Source of the DNA: Syncephalis plumigaleata
Taxonomy: Eukaryota; Zoopagomycota; Zoopagomycetes; Zoopagales; Piptocephalidaceae
Length of the DNA stretch: 25,453 nucleotides
Direction of reading: 5' to 3'
Assembly: GCA_025201365.1 (NCBI GenBank)
Contig: JAIXMF010000186.1
Coordinates: 1-25,453, forward strand
The notes beneath the pieces are model-generated. The model was not told the DNA's origin, did no database searches, and saw only the letters and a list, made by a program, of their open reading frames with translations. Shown piece after piece: positions 3,340 to 24,399 of this stretch. The stretch's first letter is position 1. Each line of letters begins with the position of its first letter. Both the position numbers and the translations under genes were made by a program.

Positions 3340-4556
3340 AATGCTATAGAGCATTCTTCTACTCTATTCATCGTTCGATTCTTTCTTCTACTCCAGCTAT
3401 GCTTATTACTTATCGTGTGCCATGAATGAGCATTGTATATCGAGTGAGGTCATCGAATATTGATTACACGAGTGCTATTTCATCACATATGTCAGCATCC
3501 TTAGAACTATGCTTCCTACATATTGTCATTACACTTGGATTACAACCTGTCATAACTATGTCTAGTGTTGCTGTATTGCTAGGAACAAAGACAACGTCTA
3601 CGTTCCTATACTTTAATGCTTACATGATACAACAGCATGGAATCGAGTGATGACAACAGCGAGCAATGGGATTGGTGAGAACACGATTCGATACACATAC
3701 AAGTGATTATGGAGGACGTAGTCAAATGTGAAATAGGGAAGAGAGAGAAAGAGAGAGGTAATTGCAACGGATACGTATTCTTCAATAGCACATCATGGCA
3801 CCATTAACAATTGGATCTGGACGTTCTTCTGCACATCGCATGCATCTACCGCATTGATGTACACTAGTGTTCGAATAATTGTGTACGCAGTACATGTAAG
3901 CAACACTAGTCGGCATTATTGATAGCAGTTTATTCAATATGCACAAGTACATGTATACACTAGTATCAACATCAATCCTCAATCATCATTGTATTGACTG
4001 ATGATATACGAGAATTGAACAAGTATGAATGGTCAATTGGTCTACTGATTAATTCGTACTAACTAATGCCATTTACGATAGATGGTGCTTGAAATGCAAA
4101 GAGCAGCATTGATCCACGTACAATTATTATGCTGGAATGAGATGATAAGGAACAGGATAAGCAATTGCAACGTAGCATATGTATGGTGTATATTAACAAG
4201 CCATTCTAGATGATTCATATCTTGATCAAAATGCCGTTACAATAGCGTATGCTATTGGCAAGCTAGGAAAGGCAGTCAAACCGCTGAATTCTGCTTAATA
4301 CATGGATTATTTGTTGATCAATAGGAATAAAGCTTACTTTTTCTATTCTGTTCTTACATTGTTGAACATGCATACACTAGAATGATAATGTCAAACGTAT
4401 ATCATTTGATTTACATGTAGTAAACGTGTATGTGTGTGAGGGAATGATACTTGAACGATGGTCATATTAACCAGATGAATGTCGTATCGTATTATAGATA
4501 CCATCGAGTATGCTCATGCTCTATTGACACGTCCATATGGTTGTGGGATCATTCAA

Positions 4557-4673
4557 TGACATGTCGTGATGCATTGCAATCAGTATCGATCATGTCAAGC
4601 GACAATGGAATGAACAATGATAGATGACATACAAATGAACATGTCATGTAGATGTCATGATAATGAATGACAT
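4557..4673. promoter_or_regulatory. Cluster of six TGACAT/ATGTCA motifs
   Basis: TGACAT occurs at 4557-4562, 4625-4630 and 4668-4673, and its reverse complement ATGTCA at 4592-4597, 4641-4646 and 4652-4657. Six copies in 117 bp is far above chance for a hexamer. TGACA is the core bound by TALE-class homeodomain proteins, which fungi possess. A regulatory role is inference only; the nearest downstream start is about 1.35 kb away. Confidence 0.25.
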
Positions 4674-5391
4674 TTGTATGGATGTGACAATCAAGTCAGA
4701 ATAATAATTACATGCACGCTCTATTATTGGGAGCTATCGTGTATTGTTCGTAATTCGCACGTATCTCTATGCTAAAGGAGCATAGTATCAGCTACTCAAC
4801 TTGATTTGCCATCACTGTCCAACTAGACAGGCATGCTTCCTATTCTTACCTATCCACTTCTTAATCAACTTCATCGAACAGCCGACTATCCTCACCACAC
4901 ATGCATGTAATACGCATAACAATCCGAGCATAGCATAATGTCTAGTGTTAGTGAAATGTGCGACTAAGGAGTTAAAACAAGTGAAGATGGAAATGAGTAC
5001 TTTTATTGACTGGGAAGAATGATGTCGAACAAATAGGTGGATGTAAACGAGCTACGTCAGTTCCCAGACTAATGATAGTTGCATTCGATAATTACAAGCA
5101 AGTAAACACTTACTCCTTCGGCAAATGCTCATATTCCCCAGCTTGCTTACATTGAACTGAACGATCCGACTACTTTGAAAGCAACGGACATCATGAAACA
5201 CTCGTACATTGTTGTATGCTTGCATTTGTGTCATTGTATTGCAGATGACAGTTATTTCATTCCTCGTTAAATGATTGGCTATTCTAATGATTTAGCACAG
5301 ACCTCTATTCAAAAACGAAATGGCTGTAACACGCTCTGTTGAACTGGTATGTTTTACTCAAACTGATGTTGGCTGCTTAACCCTTGACCAG

Positions 5392-5585: not shown

Positions 5586-5879
5586 CAGGTAAAAAGAGAA
5601 ATGGGAGTGGCGAGTATGGAGGAAATAGCGGATAGCAGCATAGAATTGGATTACAAAGTCCCATGAAAGAATCCCAGGTGAAGGAAATAAGAGAGAAGGC
5701 CTCTTAGAGCTAAAACAATGTAGCAAAATGTGCAATACAGCGTTATAATATTATTCCATGCTGTTACAACATGTCGGCATGAGTAGTAGATGCTTAGAGC
5801 AATTACTCGTGTGGATAATGAACGACACCACGATAGTCATCATCGTGCTTTCCACCTAAATATTTAGCATCATCTCGGC

Positions 5880-5885
5880 TATAAA
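5880..5885 (+). promoter_or_regulatory. TATA box of the micro-exon gene
   Basis: TATAAA lies 135 bp before the ATG at 6020. It is followed by a pyrimidine-rich leader that includes CTCTA pentamer repeats at about 5931-5955, a layout common in strongly expressed fungal genes. The assignment rests on sequence and position only. Confidence 0.5.
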
Positions 5886-5930
5886 TCAAGCACTTTTGAC
5901 ACACTCAGCTTGCCATCTTCATACTCGCTC

Positions 5931-5965
5931 TTCTACTCTACTCTACTCTACTCTCTCTCACTACT
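5931..5965 (+). repeat. CTCTA-type pyrimidine repeat in the leader
   Basis: Several near-perfect CTACT/CTCTA units followed by CT dinucleotides lie between the TATA box and the ATG of the micro-exon gene. CT-rich tracts near fungal transcription starts are common. It is likely part of the promoter or 5' UTR. Confidence 0.6.
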
Positions 5966-6019
5966 TTCTACTCTCGTTCTAGCCAGCTGAGCTATCGATT
6001 CCACTAGGCCAACATCAAC

Positions 6020-8936
6020 ATGAAGTTCTCTGCCGTTATCGCTATTGCCGTCGCCGTTGTCGCTGTCGCCAGTCTGGTCGCCGTTGAAGCTAGTCCCGCC
6101 TTGGTCCGTCGTGGTATGTCTGGCCGTGACCCTATCAATTGATGTACTAATCGTAGTCTATTGTTTCATTGTCTACCAATGATTACCGATAGGTCGTAAG
6201 CGCATGTATATTAAATGGTTGTTTTGACATGTTAATCACATCATAATGTTTATTCTTCCTATTAATTTGTTAATAATAGTTCGTAAGTTATACCATTGAC
6301 CATAACAAGGATTATGCTAATCATACTATAATGCTTATCCTACATATTGATTTATTAGCTCCAAGTAATTGACTAGATCGTTAACCATAACAAGTACTAT
6401 GCTAACTGTAATATAAATCAAAATCATATGTGGTTACTATTTGAAGAGGATGTAAGTTAACATTCTGATTGTAATAAACGGAATACTAACACAATATGTC
6501 ACACAATCCATATATTTGTCTATCACAGTGCGTAAGTTATCACTCCAGTTGTAACCTATAAGGTACTAATTCTAATCTTACACACAATCTACGTATATTT
6601 CCGTATAACAGAAAGTAAGTTATCATTCTAACCGTAATGAATGGCTTACTAATCACGCTATGACACATGATCCACATATATTCTTGTATAATAGAAAGTA
6701 AGTGATCATTCAAATCCTATGCACGAGGTACTAATACCAATATGTCTCATTATCCATATCTGCTCCTGGATGATAGGACGTAAGTCATTATTCTGACCGT
6801 AATGAATGACGTACTAATCACGCTATGGCACACGATCCACATATCTTTGTATACAATAGGAAGTAAGTTACCATTCTGGCTGATGTATGACGCGCTAACT
6901 ATGATATCGCACATGATCCACATACGTTCATGTATGATAGTATGTAAGTCATCATTTTGACCGTAATACCTGATGTACTAATATCAGCGTGGCACACGAT
7001 TCATGTCTGTTTGTGTACGATAGTTTGTAAGTTATCATTTCGGTTACAATTTATAATATACTAATCATGCTATGGCATACAATTCACATATGTTCATGTA
7101 TGATAGCACGTAAGTTATCATTCTGGCTGATGTATGACGTGCTAACTATGATATCGCACATGATTCATATGTTTCTGAATTACAGCTTGTAAGTCATTAT
7201 TCTGACCATAATAAATGAAGTACTAACCACAATACGACACACAATTCATCTATGTCCCTATATGATAGGACGTAAGTTGATATTCCGGATGTGACATACG
7301 TCATATTAATCACTCTATGACGCACGATCCACATATGTTCCTGTATGATAGGACGTAAGTTGATATTCCGGATGTGACATACGTCATATTAATCACGCTA
7401 TGACACACGATCCACATATGTTCCTGTATGGTAGAATGTAAGCTACCATTCTGGCTGTAATGAATGAGGTACTAATCACGCTATGGCACAAAATCCACGT
7501 ATGTTCTTGGGTAATAGAAAGTAAGTTATCATTTTTTATTGTGATGAATGAGATACTGACTACGATACGGCATATAATTCGCATGTATTTCTATATGATA
7601 GGGCGTAAGTTATCATCCCGATTGTGATGAATGGATGTACTAATGACAGTATGACGCACGCTTCATCTGTGTTTGTGTATAAACAGGGAGTAAGTAATCA
7701 TTTCTGACTTTAATCTATGAAGGAGTACTGATCACAATGACACACGATCCATATGTTTCTGTATGATAGAAAGTAAGTAATCACCCTAATCCAATTTGTG
7801 ATGTACTAATAATATGACACGCAATCGATACATATGTCCCGGTATGACAGTGTGTAAGTAACCATTCCATTTATAAACTATGGTATACTAATGATGGTGT
7901 GATACGTTATCCATACGTATATCTGCCTATTACAGTGCGTAGGTTACTATTATGAGCGTAATGAATGGATGTACTAACTATGATACGGCACACGATCCAC
8001 ATACATTCCCGTATGATAGAAAGTAGGTCATTATTCTGTCTGATGTATGACGTGCTAACTATGATATCGCACATGATTCATATGTTTCTGAATTATAGAT
8101 TGTAAGTTAACATCCTTACTGTAATGAATGAGGTACTAACCACAATACGACACACAATTCATCTATGTCCCTATATGATAGGACGTAAGTTGATATTCCG
8201 GATGTGACATACGTCATATTAATCACTCTATGACGCACGATCCACATATGTTCCTGTATGATAGGACGTAAGTTGATATTCCGGATGTGACATACGTCAT
8301 ATTAATCACGCTATGACGCACGATCCACATATGTTCCTGTACGATAGAATGTAAGTTACCATTCTGGCTGTAATGAATGGCTTACTAACTACACTATGGC
8401 ACATGATTCACATACGTTCTTGGATATGATAGAATGTAAGTTATCATTCTGACTATAACCTATGAGATATTAATTGTAACGTGGCACATGACCCATATAT
8501 GTTTGTGTATGATAGTTGGTAAGTTGGCATTCTGACCGTAATAAGCGAATGTACTAATAATCATGCTATGATACATGATCCACCTATGCTTCCGTATAAT
8601 AGGACGTAAGTCAATATTTCCAATCATAATATACGATGTACTAATGATAATGTGGCACATGATGTCCATATATTTGTGGATAACAGTGCGTAAGTTACTA
8701 TTCCCGATGATAACGTATGGGTGTACTAATGTTAACATGACACATGATCCATATACGCTTGTGTACGATAGAGAGTAAGTGAATATCGCTCACTGTAATG
8801 TGTGAATGAGTACTAACTACTGTATGGGCATGATTCACGTATGTTTGTGTATAACAGTATGTAAGTTAGCATTCCACTTGTCATCTACGATATGTTAATC
8901 ACAATACAATACCCATTAATTAAATGATAGGATTAA
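6020..8936 (+). CDS. Secreted Cys-rich peptide precursor (67 aa) built from single-codon micro-exons
   Basis: Exon 1 (6020-6113, 94 nt) encodes a Lys-containing N-terminus, a hydrophobic Ala/Val signal sequence (residues 3-22), VEAS, and a dibasic Arg30-Arg31 that fits Kex2-type processing. It ends in phase 1 at a GTATGT donor. Exons 2-5 (3, 3, 6 and 5 nt) restore phase 0 at residue 37. Exons 6-34, 29 exons of exactly 3 nt, supply residues 38-66 one codon each. Exon 35 gives Asp67 and the TAA (8934-8936). The spliced frame is 204 nt with no internal stop. The predicted mature peptide (residues 32-67) is highly charged and has cysteines at 38, 54, 55 and 64, with the motif DDN twice. Exon 1 has GCC/GTC-biased codons, suggesting high expression. 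Function unknown: effector, antimicrobial or signalling peptide are all possible. The splice model is inferred, without transcript evidence. Confidence 0.75.
7110..7437 (+). repeat. Four-unit block, copy 1 (introns 13-16 with exons 14-17)
   Basis: This block of four intron-plus-codon units (codons CTT, GAC, GAC, AAT) matches 8023-8350 in order. Introns 15 and 26 are identical over 80 nt. Introns 16 and 27 differ at about three positions. Introns 14 and 25 agree in their second halves only, and 13 and 24 over most of their length. The block encodes Leu-Asp-Asp-Asn. It shows that the array, and hence the peptide, also grew by multi-unit duplication. Confidence 0.85.
8023..8350 (+). repeat. Four-unit block, copy 2 (introns 24-27 with exons 25-28)
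   Basis: Second copy of the block at 7110-7437, encoding Ile-Asp-Asp-Asn (codons ATT, GAC, GAC, AAT). The first-position change CTT to ATT is the only coding difference. Patchy divergence in the first halves of introns 24 and 25 suggests later gene conversion or recombination with other units: intron 10 shares its 5' half with intron 13. Confidence 0.85.
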
Positions 8937-9200
8937 GCAGTAAGTAATAATCCACAATAATCATACTCATACTAATCCATTATGGTTACAGAACAAGACA
9001 AGGACATCATCAAGTAGATATTATAGGTATTCAAGTCAAGAATGTATTGGTGCAAGACCCTTTTGTGTCCACGCTATTCAAGTCATTATTCCTTGGTACA
9101 ACAACAACAAGCATATCTACAAGTCCCTTACGTCTATTCATCCATGGTCCTATTACATAAATATCAACTAATGGCTGGTTCATTGATTGAATAAATATGT
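8931..9200 (+). other. Stop-containing exon 35, 3'-UTR intron and terminal exon
   Basis: Exon 35 (8931-8939) carries GAT TAA. A 52-nt intron (8940-8991; GTAAGT donor, ACTAAT branch, TACAG acceptor) follows three bases after the stop, then a terminal exon ending near an AATAAA at about 9190-9195. The last intron is shorter than the array introns and unrelated to them in sequence. Even if the acceptor before exon 35 moved to 8937 or 8940, phase 0 would still meet a TAA at once, so the end of the protein is robust to that choice. The segment 8935-9200 recurs at 3074-3339. Confidence 0.65.
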
Positions 9201-9608
9201 GCTATTCTGACCATTATACATATTGAATATCAATGTTGTTGGTAAACATTTATTTAATGTCAAAAAGAGAAAAGCGAAATTTAATTGAAAATAAAACTGA
9301 AAAACTAGAAATGCTTTAGAACAAATAGGTGTGTGCGTCCACTTGACTACATATAATAGCGAGCAATACCTAATAATAATGCATTTTAACTTTTGTTAAA
9401 TACTGGCTATTATCTATGTACAAGTAAGACACGAATGCAGCTATAATGGTAGTAGTAATGATGATGTTGTTGATGATGATAATGGTGATGGCAATTATAC
9501 TTAAAGCGTAGTATTGTATGTATGTATATCTGTATATGTATGACTGAATGACTGAATGTATATATGTATGATTGTTGAATTAAATAATGTAATGGCAATG
9601 ATGGCATG
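9201..9608. other. Convergent intergenic region
   Basis: AT-rich 3' flank shared by the plus-strand micro-exon gene and the minus-strand kinase gene. It contains TATG/GTAT-rich low-complexity sequence at about 9515-9575 and an ATAAA-type element near 9290. No gene seen. Confidence 0.4.
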
Positions 9609-12917: not shown

Positions 12918-14123
12918 GGATAGGTCAAGCATGTGTGTGAGTGTGAGTGTATGCGTGAATATATGTGTATATGGCCTATTAGACAAATAAAGCCAATGGT
13001 GCAGCATGCCTTGACAATACACGATAGTTCTAGCCCATTCACTAAGAATGAATATAGCAAGATGAGAGCGTGTTGTTGAACGGATAAATGAGAATGAATA
13101 CTGGTTTACACGCAATGTAACGCGTGGATACTTGCAACAAAGAGTAAATCAAAGAATAATAGCAGTAGTAACAGCAGCGAGATATATAAAAGAATGTTGT
13201 AGTTGAACTAGTTGTTCATCAATTATACACGCATACACGCATAGACATACACACACACACATGCGCATACAACCGAGAACGGAAGCGGGAAAATGTCAAA
13301 CCACACGATACGGAATTATTCTGTATAAATGAACGACAATGGTAAGGACAATGTGCGTGCATATGAGCATGTATCCTGTATGGTGTATGGCATCAAACGA
13401 GAATGACACGGTAAATTAACGTCAAACAACTAGACACACACACACACACACAGTCAGTGTAGATGGTAAGAGGAAAACCAGTTATGACAAGAGACGAGCA
13501 TACGAGAAGAGACGTTTCCACATGGATTACGTTTATATGCGGTATTTCGGATATAGCACAACATATACTAGAAACCGGATAACCATATTCAATGAATCAA
13601 TTAATAAAGGAATGAATGAATATGGTATAGTCATCATCTGCGTGTCACAATTGTTACGTATCTACAATGTAGACATAGACACACAGACATTAACCGACTA
13701 ATCTCTCTGGAACAAAGGAGAACAAGCAAGTAAACAAATGAAAGAAAGAGGAATACACACCTTTTATGTCAAGAACCAGTAAGGCACATGAATAGAAATA
13801 CAACATATGCAGCAGTGACTATTATAAAGTCAAGTAATTCATTCATCAATAATAGTAGCAATATAAATACACCTTTGACATGAATGCATATAGCTCTATT
13901 TATAACACTCATAAACATCAATGCAACGCATAGATTGAAATGTAGGATCCCTGCTGTCTCGTGAGTAAATGTATGCGTGTAGGTATGCGTGTAGGTAACT
14001 TTGCCACCATGCCATGTCACATTATCCCATTCATTTATCTGTACAATCCATACAATGATAATAATGATAATAATAGAAAACGCCAAGAGTGCCACACACA
14101 GTCTTACTATATTTATAAATGAT

Positions 14124-14152
14124 ATATATATATAGATAGATATATATATATA
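14124..14152. repeat. TA-rich microsatellite
   Basis: TA dinucleotides interrupted by a TAGATAGA unit, just before ACTTACCTACC (a minus-strand donor-like string). No gene model could be attached. Confidence 0.7.
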
Positions 14153-15059
14153 CTTACCTACCTGTAATTGTTTATTATTCGTAATAATAAACCACTAGTA
14201 CTATGATTGATACTGATGATAATGGTGCAGTACACTACAAACTAGATAATGATCTGCCTGCTTATCTCGTAAGCGTAGTCTTAAATACGCTCAGCGTGTA
14301 TATGTTGTGGTTGTTGTGGTTGTTGCTTCTGATAATAAAGTAGCGTATTGATAAAACTAACTATAGACAAAAAAGACAGCTGCCACTATTGCTGTTACTG
14401 ATATTCTTATGGTCGTAGTGAGTATAAGTAACCAGTTGACTAATCAATGGCTTTCAATTACAAGAAAACAAAATAAATGAACACAGTGAATTGGTGTGGA
14501 ATGAGAGTGAGTGAGTAAGTAAATAAAGTGTGAATGAGGAGAGTAAGAGAGAGAAGGAACACTCAATATGGTGGATGAATTTAAAGGTGTTCTTACGAGT
14601 GGTGAGTGTAGACTGGTATGGTTTGAAATACCGCGCAAGTGTGCCACAATGAATTGGAAAACGCCGTCACTTACGGGATTATTCTCCATGGCAAAATGAC
14701 TCATTTCTATCCCGTGAATAATCATCATCCTATAATGAGCATGGCTGGATAATGTACTAGTTATCTATACTAGTAGTAAACACATTCCTGTGTGTGTGTC
14801 AGTATGAGGCATGGTGTACTACCAAAGGCATTCTTTCTCCCTTACTACTACTCTCTTTCTCTCTCACCCTTCATACGCGTAACTGTTTTAATCAGCCATG
14901 TTAACTCGTAACTACGATGGACGTGTTTCTTTCTTGTTCCTTTCCCTTCTACGGCTTATCTACAAATTACTCGATTGGATATACACTAGATTCGGTTGAT
15001 AAACACGTGTGTAATGCAACTTTAATGGATAGATACTAGATTAACCTATTTATCATTTA

Positions 15060-19645: not shown

Positions 19646-20687
19646 AATGTTGCTTATACTACGACATGGTTACAATTCATTGGATATGTTGTTTGACAAG
19701 TAAAATATAGCAATTTGAATTTATTGCTGTTGCTTGTATAGGAAAGAGAAAGAGAAAGCATATAGATATATCTATATAATCTACTAAACTAAATAAATAT
19801 GAACTTGATAGCATAGCTCGTCGCCATTAGTAGTGCTTATCGTCATTTTCCCTAATGATAATGAATCGCGTTGTGCACCTATCATTCACTGTGAGTTTGC
19901 ATAGTAAACTTGAAAATGAACATGTTTCATGAAGCTATCAGAAAACGGGTTGCAAAACGATAACCCGTTTACATTAGGGCACACAATTGCCACTATCACT
20001 CTAACGACGTTTCAGCCAAATCCGCAAAGCAGAGAAGTAACTCTACATCATTAATGTAGCTATCTGAAAGAATAACTGTAGATATTTCATTTCGTGATTA
20101 CAATGAAATGCTAAAGAAACTATTATAGCAAGTAAGTATCTGATTAATATATGGCCTCGAGTTGACATGACTTCATTCATTCAACATCACATTCATCTAT
20201 GCAATAACAAAGCACAAACTGGTTGTTTCAACAATCTCAAGCAAAGGCACAATGATATAATTAAAACAAGCTGTTAATAATAGCACATCGACTGAAACAC
20301 GAGAAAGATGTCCTGTCCAGTCGTTCCATCTCCGTATAATCGGTCTCCATTGTAATTATGAGCTCATTTCCTGTTCATGAAAGACTTGCCATGACATTGC
20401 AAGTGATACTCGTGTATTTAAATATCAGCACGAGTAGCAATGGTTTAGGAGAGGAAAGCCTCATACTCTTCTATTCCAATTATCTCCAACTATCTAGTTA
20501 TCAACAGTTTTCTTGTCTTATTGGACACATCTATCACTAGCATTACTTATTAATAGGTATCATCTATCTACTGCGTCTTTTCTCTAGTTACTTCTATTTA
20601 GCATAATCAAATTTATCGAATTGATTACTCGATTGAGTGTGTGTGTGTGTGTGTGTGTGATTCTGTGAATCTCAAATAATAGTCACA
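19646..20687. other. Intergenic region between threonine synthase and the CAP gene
   Basis: About 1 kb with no convincing gene. It contains a perfect 9-bp inverted repeat with a 10-nt loop (19943-19951 and 19962-19970; arms AAACGGGTT/AACCCGTTT), and a GT dinucleotide run (20636-20659) about 30 bp before the next ATG. Confidence 0.45.
20636..20659. repeat. GT dinucleotide run in the CAP gene leader
   Basis: An uninterrupted GT repeat of about 24 bp directly upstream of the CAP-domain gene, probably within its promoter or 5' UTR. Confidence 0.8.
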
Positions 20688-21404
20688 ATGTTTATCAAGC
20701 CTTTTGTGACCTTAGCATTAGCTGCTATACTTTGCAGCGACTCGACTGTCGCCTATAATCGCATGAAGATGCTGTGTCTCGTCAATAAGGCGCGAGCCGA
20801 GAATGGACTCCCAGCCCTAGGCGATAGTCCCGTACTAACAAGTTCCTCTCAGTACCATTGCAACGAGCAAGCCGCCATGGACCGATTGGACCATAATAGT
20901 AGGAATGGGGAAGAATTCGACACGCGCATTAAACGATTCGCCGCTAGTCTTTTCAACTTTTCCGCCGAGAACATTTCCTACAATCGCGCCACAGAAGAGG
21001 AGGCGATGAAGAAATGGCTGGCCTCACCCGGTCACTATGCGAATATCATGTCGAAAGATGCAACGCATATGGGTTCGGCGGTCGCGTACAACAGTAAGAA
21101 CGAGCCGTACTACACGCAAAACTTTGGCGGTGACGGCAAAAAGCACAACTTCCCCATGTGTCCAGGTGAAAGCGCACCCTCCTCCTACGGTTCATATCCA
21201 AGTGACAGTAGTCCAGCATCGACCCCATCCACGTACGGTGACCATTATGAGCGGGCACCAGCTACTAGCACTGCCACTGAGGAACCGGCTGCTTCTGACT
21301 ATGGCTCTACCGTCGCCGATGAAGATAGCCAGTCTGCCGATACATATCAAACTTATACCACGTCCATGCTTATGAATCAACTTCTAGCACGAATACACCA
21401 GTAA
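20688..21404 (+). CDS. Secreted CAP/SCP (PR-1-like) protein, 238 aa
   Basis: A signal peptide (about residues 1-22, ending TVA) is followed by a CAP domain (about 25-150). The visible hallmarks are LCLVNKARAENGLPAL at the start, SSQYHCNEQAAMDRLDHNS, SAENISYN (the GEN motif in the form AEN), KKWLASPGHYANIMSKDATHMGSAV (the conserved W...SxGH/HYxNI...MG block), and YYTQNFGG. Such proteins are secreted; the yeast members (Pry) bind sterols and fatty acids. After the domain comes a Ser/Thr/Pro-rich tail (about 160-230). The frame closes at 21402-21404, but another frame continues immediately downstream with a Cys-rich segment, so the C-terminus may be broken or alternative (see the next entry). 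The gene is single-exon and convergent with the HAUS2-like gene. Confidence 0.85.
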   Translation: MFIKPFVTLALAAILCSDSTVAYNRMKMLCLVNKARAENGLPALGDSPVLTSSSQYHCNEQAAMDRLDHNSRNGEEFDTRIKRFAASLFNFSAENISYNRATEEEAMKKWLASPGHYANIMSKDATHMGSAVAYNSKNEPYYTQNFGGDGKKHNFPMCPGESAPSSYGSYPSDSSPASTPSTYGDHYERAPATSTATEEPAASDYGSTVADEDSQSADTYQTYTTSMLMNQLLARIHQ

Positions 21405-22857: not shown

Positions 22858-24399
22858 ATGGCTGTGCTATCGGAGCGCTTTGCTCGGATATGGGCGAAAA
22901 CACGGCGAGCATGTACACTAAGTGAATTAAGCGGTGGTTTTGGTGATTTAGGCACTCTACTACCAATTATTACGGCGTTATCTATATCTGGTCAGGTAGG
23001 CACGCTAGCCTCGTCCTGCTGTTATTGTCGCGTTGCTAAGTCTATTCTGTTTAGATTTCAATGACGGCCTCTTTGGTCTTTGGAGGTCTATGGAATATAG
23101 TTAGCGGTCTACACTTTGGCATTCCAGTCTGTGTACAACCTATGAAAGGTACGCTTACCCATATATATATACATGAAGGAAAGAATAATTGCGTTAACCG
23201 AACGAATAGCTATTGCAGCGGTTGCTCTCGCTCAAAATCTTACTCCAGGCGAGGTCAGTGCAGCCGGTATTTCGGTTGGCGCTATTGTATTTATTCTCGG
23301 CGCCTCCGGTCTAATAACTTGGGTGGCGCGTGTCACCCCACCCTGTATCGTCAAGGGAATCCAGCTGGGCACCGGTATAACGCTTTGCATTAAAGCGGTG
23401 GCAGGACTCGACAAGTTGGTGTGGGGCGGCTCGCGCTGGCAATGGTGGGACAACTACGAGTGGGCCTTACTCGCGCTGTTGGTCTGCTTCGCATTGTATC
23501 GACAGCCTCGAGTACCATTGGCTCTCGGCATGTTCATTCTCGGGCTGATACTGTCGCTGATCTACATTGGCGTGGCACGAAATAGTAATTCGCCAAAAGC
23601 GCCAAATTGGCCGGGCTTCCGATTTGCCGACTTCCCTACTCCATCCGCGCCAACACCATCGGAACTATTAAACGGTTTCGTGAAGGCGGGTCTCGGTCAA
23701 TTGCCGCTAACCACGCTTAATTCAGTGGTGGCACTGGTCCACCTGGCGGGAGATCTATTTCCTGAACGAACACCATTATCGGCGCGTGAGGTCGCCATGT
23801 CCGTAGGACTGATGAATCTTATCGGTTGTTTCTTCGGCTCCACTCCTTATTGTCATGGCTCGGGAGGATTGGCGGGTCAGTATCGATTTGGTGCTCGATC
23901 GGGCGCTAGTGTTATCATTCTGGGCGTATTCAAAATACTGGTGGGATTGATCTTCGGCAGCACATTGACCGGACTATTGGCCGTATTTCCACAATCACTC
24001 TTAGGTGTGATGCTATTCATTAGTGGCGCGGAACTTGCCTGTTCTGCACGTACTTATGCGCGTAAGGAAGCACCAGAAGCAGAACAGCGTGATAACTTTA
24101 CAACCATGATTATGGCGGGCGGTATGCTTATTGCGTTCAAGCACGACGGTATCGGTTTCTTGGCGGGAATTGCATGTCATCTATTGCTGTATGTTCAGCG
24201 AGTAAGAATGAACAACTCCTTGTCTAGTTCAGCGATTGTACAAGACGCTCAATCACCGTCAGAATCACAATTAGACTCGGATCAAAGTGAGAAACCATTG
24301 AATGCCCGTGCCAATACACAACATCATCGTAATGAACACGATGATCCTGATGAGATACAAGTATTTGTGCCACCAGACGAGAGTAATAATAAATGTTAG
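22858..24399 (+). CDS. Molybdate transporter of the MOT1 family, three exons, 473 aa
   Basis: Exons are 22858-22995, 23055-23148 and 23210-24399; introns are 59 and 61 nt with GTAGGC and GTACGC donors and TTTAG/ATAG acceptors, and the phases fit. Both family signatures are present: GGFGDLGTLLPIITAL (from about residue 26) and IPVCVQPMK across exon 2 (PVxVQPMK). About ten hydrophobic helices follow, with a conserved-looking GSTPYCHGSGGLAGQYRFGARSG block, like the second MOT1/SulP-related motif. Such proteins import molybdate with high affinity for molybdenum cofactor synthesis. The hydrophilic Gln/Ser/Asn-rich C-terminal tail (about residues 395-473) is likely cytosolic. Plasma membrane versus organelle location cannot be told. 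Confidence 0.88.

Follow-up and report, generated by a model that had tools for sequence, protein, structure and literature searches.

The window analyzed here, a 25,453-nt stretch of the Syncephalis plumigaleata genome, contains on its forward strand a gene whose predicted 204-nt coding sequence is divided by 34 introns, with one further intron in the 3′ UTR; the preliminary description had claimed the same coding length and the same 34 introns, and both figures were recovered. Exon 1 (6020–6113, 94 nt, donor GTATGT at 6114) comprises a start codon, a hydrophobic leader MKFSAVIAIAVAVVAVASLVAVEASPALVRR and one additional base, and ends in phase 1. It is followed by two 3-nt exons in phase 1, GTC (6193–6195) and TTC (6280–6282), by a 6-nt exon, CTCCAA (6359–6364, donor GTAATT), that is identical in the related loci L029 and L031, and by a 5-nt exon, AGGAT (6447–6451), that uses an AAG acceptor and restores phase 0. 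The 5-nt reading of AGGAT is supported by the near-identical copy L029, which lacks the alternative GAG|GAT acceptor and has ATGAT as the equivalent exon. Next comes an unbroken run of 29 single-codon exons (6529–8860, from 6529–6531 to 8858–8860), separated by introns of about 80 nt with TACTAAT-like branch sites and spaced 79 to 87 bp apart (about 83 bp). Codons 1 to 15 read TGC AAA AAA GAC GAA TAT TTT CAC CTT GAC GAC AAT AAA GGC GGA, and codons 16 to 29 read AAA TGT TGC AAA ATT GAC GAC AAT AAT TTG GAC TGC AGA TAT. The last coding micro-exon, GATTAAGCA (8931–8939, 9 nt), supplies one codon and the stop TAA, and in relatives a comparable exon carries TAA in the equivalent position. The 3′ UTR exon starts with GTATTCAAGTCAAGAATGTATTGG (9027–9050), which recurs in relatives with small changes; its far end is undefined. 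In all, the gene has 34 micro-exons, 31 of them 3 nt long.

The array stands far above chance. There are 36 YAGNNNGTARG sites on both strands of the window, 31 of them on the forward strand at 6190–8865, compared with a mean of 2.2 and a maximum of 8 in dinucleotide shuffles, and the 29 such units that follow the leader exon at about 83 bp, as described earlier from the letters alone, were found again at 6529–8860. Tandem Repeats Finder (TRF) describes the array as period 83, 24.1 copies and 67% matches. Read in phase 0, the triplets contain four Cys codons and no stop and lead to the TAA in 8931–8939, again as described. The frame can be reached from exon 1 through GTC, TTC, CTCCAA and AGGAT, a detail that the earlier account had left implicit. 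Splice sites alone yield a complete predicted precursor of 67 aa: the leader, RR, and then GLPPKDCKKDEYFHLDDNKGGKCCKIDDNNLDCRYD. The leader is hydrophobic by inspection only, and we take the RR at its end to be a Kex2-type protease site. Pfam identified among the neighbors in the window a CAP-family protein (20661–21404) and a molybdate-transporter-like protein (23146–24399), and the adjoining threonine synthase is 82% identical to its Syncephalis pseudoplumigaleata homolog and 75% identical to that of S. fuscata.

The leader exon of the window gene has 150 matches in the genome (150 scored of 174 candidates), many of which have the same 44-aa open frame as window exon 1, as if the donor were common to them. 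Strict adjacent pairs of the form YAG-NNN-GTAAGT...YAG-NNN-GTAAGT number 1753 genome-wide (238+234+329+279+377+296), with A as the first base of the first codon in 472, C or T in 608 and G in 673; since some contigs duplicate others, these pairs are not all independent. Reversed-pattern controls for the 3-nt pairs gave 1 hit in all across the genome, and genome-wide searches for pairs with a 4-nt spacer (reversed control 2) or a 2-nt spacer gave none. The fetched loci hold 409 strict pairs and 576 decoded 3-nt exons, a ratio that by extrapolation would correspond to some 2,500 single-codon exons genome-wide. A subfamily marker pattern occurs at 7 places, the window among them. Many loci lie near contig starts, which had suggested a subtelomeric location; this idea was dropped, as several such contigs are only 37–40 kb long.

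Counts given below for 31 regions refer to L009–L038 and the window; L001–L008 overlap L009–L012 and were excluded. The 20-gene counts cover regions that combine the leader with a G|GTA[TC]GT donor and the 3′ UTR motif; L010, L011, L013, L017, L019, L021, L027, L028, L030, L032 and L036 fall outside them. Three of these regions have unusual layouts. L011 (C1:1409000–1418900, minus strand) is a much larger chain of 59 small exons, of which 51 are 3 nt and others 21 and 27 nt, with a family-like 3′ end and no leader match among those listed. L019 (C1:2470500–2477000, minus strand) has an exon in which RRDHVPPAAFRSLE-like units recur, and the exons after it are mostly 3 nt; it has the look of a repeat protein processed by Kex2 and belonging to the same superfamily. 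L036 (C58:10500–16800, minus strand, local 4046–5039) contains a second chain, in which 8 of 11 exons are 6 nt, that is, two codons.

The spacing between acceptor and donor follows a strict length rule. Across distances of 0 to 15 nt in the 20 genes, the sense-strand interval from YAG to GTAAGT is 3 nt in 370 cases, 9 nt in 14, 12 nt in 2, 15 nt in 2 and 2 nt in 1, with no other sense value and an antisense total of 1; no length prior enters this count. Of the micro-exons in the same genes, 437/497 are 3 nt. Stop codons are absent from the triplets. In 20 regions and the window, 25 chains with three or more strict triplets contain 351 triplets and not one stop, where position-specific base composition predicts 11.1 (P about 1e-5, relatedness ignored). 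The same triplets read antisense give 3 stops in 351, and the other two phases have stops at 5/293 and 33/293 junctions, the first of them thus being almost free of stops as well. Genome-wide, the first triplets of strict pairs that fall in the class TRR are TGG in 56/56 cases, and TAA, TAG and TGA in none of the 56. A decoder that uses splice signals and length preferences, is blind to frame and has a length prior favoring 3-nt exons likewise returned 0 stops among 576 3-nt exons (decoded chains scoring >150 in the 31 regions).

With this splice-only decoder, the best path is a full open reading frame with its stop in the last micro-exon at 13/20 loci and is not at 7/20. This headline figure comes from a looser run; a first, strict run chained 13/20 loci, with 12 full open reading frames. 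When the frame was imposed on the decoder, the true starting phase was free of cost in 15/20 loci and score was lost in five (L014, L026, L033, L034 and L037), which may reflect defective copies, incorrect models or the limits of the test itself. The wrong starting phases were cost-free in 5/20 (L016, L026, L033, L034, L037) and 2/20 (L016, L035). L016 and L020 score higher with the frame because the frame-imposing decoder let in weaker donors. In all 15 loci that fit the frame, a 2- or 5-nt exon shifts the phase-1 leader to phase 0.

Public protein models offer a further comparison. Out of 16 named S. plumigaleata matches, P0121 (GenBank BDF22DRAFT_685685) and P0125 (BDF22DRAFT_685769, partial) were mapped to loci, both on contig C362. 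In gapped alignments, 38 of the 41 single-codon residues of the L037 model align with P0121 and are identical (38/38), and 40 of the 45 in the L038 model align with P0125 and are identical (40/40), so that, at the level of predicted sequence, two public models already hold single-codon residues in order. In P0121 the last intron is retained, in P0125 there is a stretch that the L038 model lacks, and both skip several exons, partly ones with weak donors. Because of the kept intron, the extra stretch and the omitted exons, these models may be of ab initio origin and are no transcript proof. Length specificity, the absence of stops, the splice-only reading frames, the frame-resetting exons and these two GenBank models together support the central claim of the preliminary description, namely that the triplets are single-codon coding exons.

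A profile of 11 members gave 24 matches, comprising the 16 named S. plumigaleata proteins, one unnamed NCBI protein and seven JGI/ENA proteins without a specific name; none of the 24 is named as a micro-exon gene (MEG) product, and more distant kinship lies beyond the reach of the search. The seven JGI/ENA proteins (P0138–P0144) have the leader in common with the family. In P0138–P0142 the RR is followed by an RRG.SGHGHI-like continuation that resembles unspliced window exon 1 (RRGMSGRDPIN), and this suggests related genes in environmental relatives.

The introns are uniform in size and alike both within and between arrays, with a median of 80 nt and an interquartile range of 79–81 (517 introns, 20 genes). 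GC donors occur in 5/576 units. The branch-point A lies a median of 43 nt from the exon in 522 micro-exon introns, compared with 11 and 15 nt in two introns of the neighboring threonine synthase, and we suggest that the long distance may give room where the next donor almost touches the acceptor. RNA structure prediction for 150 sampled introns gave mean z values of +0.32 for the whole intron, −0.11 from branch to AG and −0.28 from donor to branch, with no clear excess.

Comparison of copies shows that the codons change quickly. The window and L029 (contig C46) are near-identical around the gene (window 5700–9600) and 99% identical over 701 bases downstream (window 14000–14700; C46 620457–621157), and the window contig, C97, and C46 appear to represent two haplotypes of a single locus; certain other contigs likewise seem to be duplicates of larger ones. 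Twelve consecutive codon units and, at single exons, the changes F/W, L/I and D/V distinguish the two copies. The 12 units form a 996-bp segment (7261–8256) that is absent from L029 by alignment and is flanked by near-identical blocks (7186–7437 and 8099–8350), and the difference may be an assembly collapse in C46. Of seven pairs compared, six had micro-exons that were more divergent than the introns: window/L031 (33/107 versus 383/2310; Fisher P 0.0004), L029/L031 (26/77 versus 209/1610), L012/L035 (24/53 versus 260/1019; P 0.004), L009/L018 (30/62 versus 382/1138; P 0.02), window/L029 (6/77 versus 35/1615; P 0.009) and the partly misaligned L032/L033 (34/66 versus 404/1385). The exception is L023/L030, which goes in the opposite direction (3/125 versus 266/2843; P 0.004). 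Splice sites changed little, at 9/287 in window/L031.

Codons were also compared between individual units. Where two of the 576 units have upstream introns with an identity of 95% or more, 19/58 pairs differ in the codon and 0/19 of these changes are synonymous; at 90–95% identity, 60/82 differ, two synonymously. These unit pairs are not independent of one another, and some codon differences could stem from recombination within units. With the downstream intron also at least 80% identical, and upstream identity falling from 95–100% to 80–85%, codons differ in 9/43, 13/25, 22/44 and 13/35 pairs, with 0, 0, 3 and 2 synonymous changes, respectively; in the 80–85% class codon conservation is as expected (0.63 versus 0.56). 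We read the family as encoding predicted hypervariable secreted peptides.

The predicted products are diverse. Cysteines form a C...CC...C pattern in 7/20 (one of which, L014, has a model that loses score when the frame is imposed), another CC arrangement in 1/20 and two single Cys in 3/20, and 9/20 have none; the Cys-free products include Gly-rich, Pro-rich and Lys-Ala-rich ones. One set of 11 family rows was chosen for its cysteines. L038 has a predicted product of 81 aa and 49 micro-exons, of which 47 are single-codon and 45 stand in an unbroken row. A Pfam scan of three precursors found no match in two and, in the third, a weak match to Orai-1 (E 0.014) that is under the cut-off and reaches over the leader. 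Conotoxins and fungal Kex2-processed repeat proteins combine a conserved leader, a dibasic site and a variable mature part, and the predicted Syncephalis precursors have these three features in common with them. We know of none among those proteins that is built from single-codon exons.

Among known gene types, the micro-exon gene of schistosomes and tapeworms comes closest. MEGs encode secreted or exposed proteins, found at the host interface, from coding regions made mostly of short symmetric exons (PMC4350168, PMC7653826, PMC5825161), and their exon skipping can alter a protein by single residues (PMC7653826). The Syncephalis family resembles them in its symmetric exons and predicted secretion. 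One published definition for tapeworms requires 7 or more exons, of which half or more must be micro-exons (<70 nt and a multiple of 3), and a run of at least 4 (PMC7653826), and the window gene, with 34 micro-exons, 31 of 3 nt and a run of 29, falls within it as worded there. Another describes short symmetric exons of 6–36 bp over about 80% of the coding region (PMC5825161), and by that size range the family falls outside, 437/497 of its micro-exons being 3 nt. The Syncephalis genes further differ in being fungal and in their runs of single-codon exons, 29 in the window gene and up to 45 in L038, with mutually repeated introns, and the profile search found no sequence kinship to MEG families within its reach. 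By exon size the family is a non-member, although it works like MEGs in exon symmetry and predicted secretion.

Exon size alone is not new, since exons that encode one residue are said to be found across biology (PMC7653826); the runs are. Aphid bicycle genes, which likewise form large families, encode divergent putative effectors, have many micro-exons and average about 17 exons each (PMC9168663); their internal exons are described there as almost all phase 2, whereas those of the main Syncephalis run are phase 0 and mostly one codon. A 1-nt exon is spliced in Arabidopsis APC11, where 3 nt is given as the smallest alternatively spliced exon until then (PMC4674806), and another 1-nt exon is reported in Fusarium CYP621A (PMC12940212). 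Both are single tiny exons in otherwise ordinary genes, in contrast to the Syncephalis arrays. Our literature search, which was poor in subscription papers, found neither runs of single-codon exons nor Syncephalis micro-exons in titles and abstracts.

We propose that these genes are a family of secreted peptide precursors built from single-codon exons. An ordinary exon 1 would encode a conserved signal-peptide-like leader up to a dibasic (RR) site. Tiny exons, usually three or four, would come next, one of them (2 or 5 nt) resetting the frame; nearly every mature residue would then have its own 3-nt phase-0 exon amid homologous introns of about 80 nt, and a final micro-exon would supply the stop. 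If the genes are expressed, each short intron would probably be recognized singly, by intron definition through GTAAGT and a strong branch site, and the introns would be removed serially. A Kex2-type protease would cut the precursor after RR, and the mature peptide, with C...CC...C in one subset, would act extracellularly, most likely at the contact between fungus and host. Syncephalis is named as mycoparasitic (PMC10386755), and we lean towards a host-directed role for the peptides. We put the probability of this explanation, with the window locus as one member of a large S. plumigaleata family of genes for predicted small secreted peptide precursors, at about 0.9.

Two other readings would deny that the triplets code. 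The array could be a non-coding tandem repeat in one long intron, with exon 1 joined to the terminal exon. The units are indeed tandem repeats by TRF (period 83, 24.1 copies), the introns of different genes are alike, and some public models continue exon 1 into the intron, as P0123 does by running through the exon 1 donor. However, repeats alone leave unexplained the absence of stops, the 3-nt and multiple-of-3 spacers and the frame-resetting 5- or 2-nt exon, as well as codons that differ beside near-identical upstream introns with none of 19 changes synonymous, and we consider this reading very improbable. Still less credible is the idea that the sites mark zero-length points of recursive splicing (ratchet points) or remnants of introners, which are related introns spread over unrelated genes by insertion, an idea for which the closeness of AG and GT and the homology of the introns might speak. 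YAG|GTAAGT at distance 0, the zero-length exon of a ratchet site, occurs 0 times in the 20 genes, and ratchet points would not preserve three variable, stop-free bases.

A further possibility, compatible with a family of secreted precursors, is that the triplets are optional and that alternative splicing produces a mixed pool of peptides from each gene, as is thought for schistosome MEGs. The exons of the main run are symmetric, and the GenBank models of two loci leave out several micro-exons in frame; yet the donors of several skipped exons are weak or unusual, so that annotation error may account for the omissions, and the Cys pattern suggests a defined product in that subset. We entertain optional triplets tentatively, as somewhat less probable than not. 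A broader proposal, to which we would give even odds, is that the codon-per-exon layout is a system of tandem, interchangeable intron-codon cassettes, in which recombination between intron repeats edits the peptide residue by residue and exon skipping yields many peptides per gene, a diversity generator in a parasite-host arms race.

The single-codon precursor genes proposed here represent gene architecture at its limit, where an exon equals a codon over long runs. They would challenge the spliceosome with a donor 3 nt past the last acceptor, dozens of times over, and the arrays would allow intron definition and sequential splicing to be tested in a natural setting. One-codon exons also explain how such genes can evade annotation. 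Given symmetric exons and mutually repeated introns, codons could be gained, lost, swapped or skipped in frame, which would suit a fast-diversifying peptide and would open a route of diversification in which amino acids are gained or lost through intron recombination with no frameshift. If this is true, the gene layout would allow individual amino acids to be swapped, added or skipped in the predicted secreted peptides of a mycoparasite.
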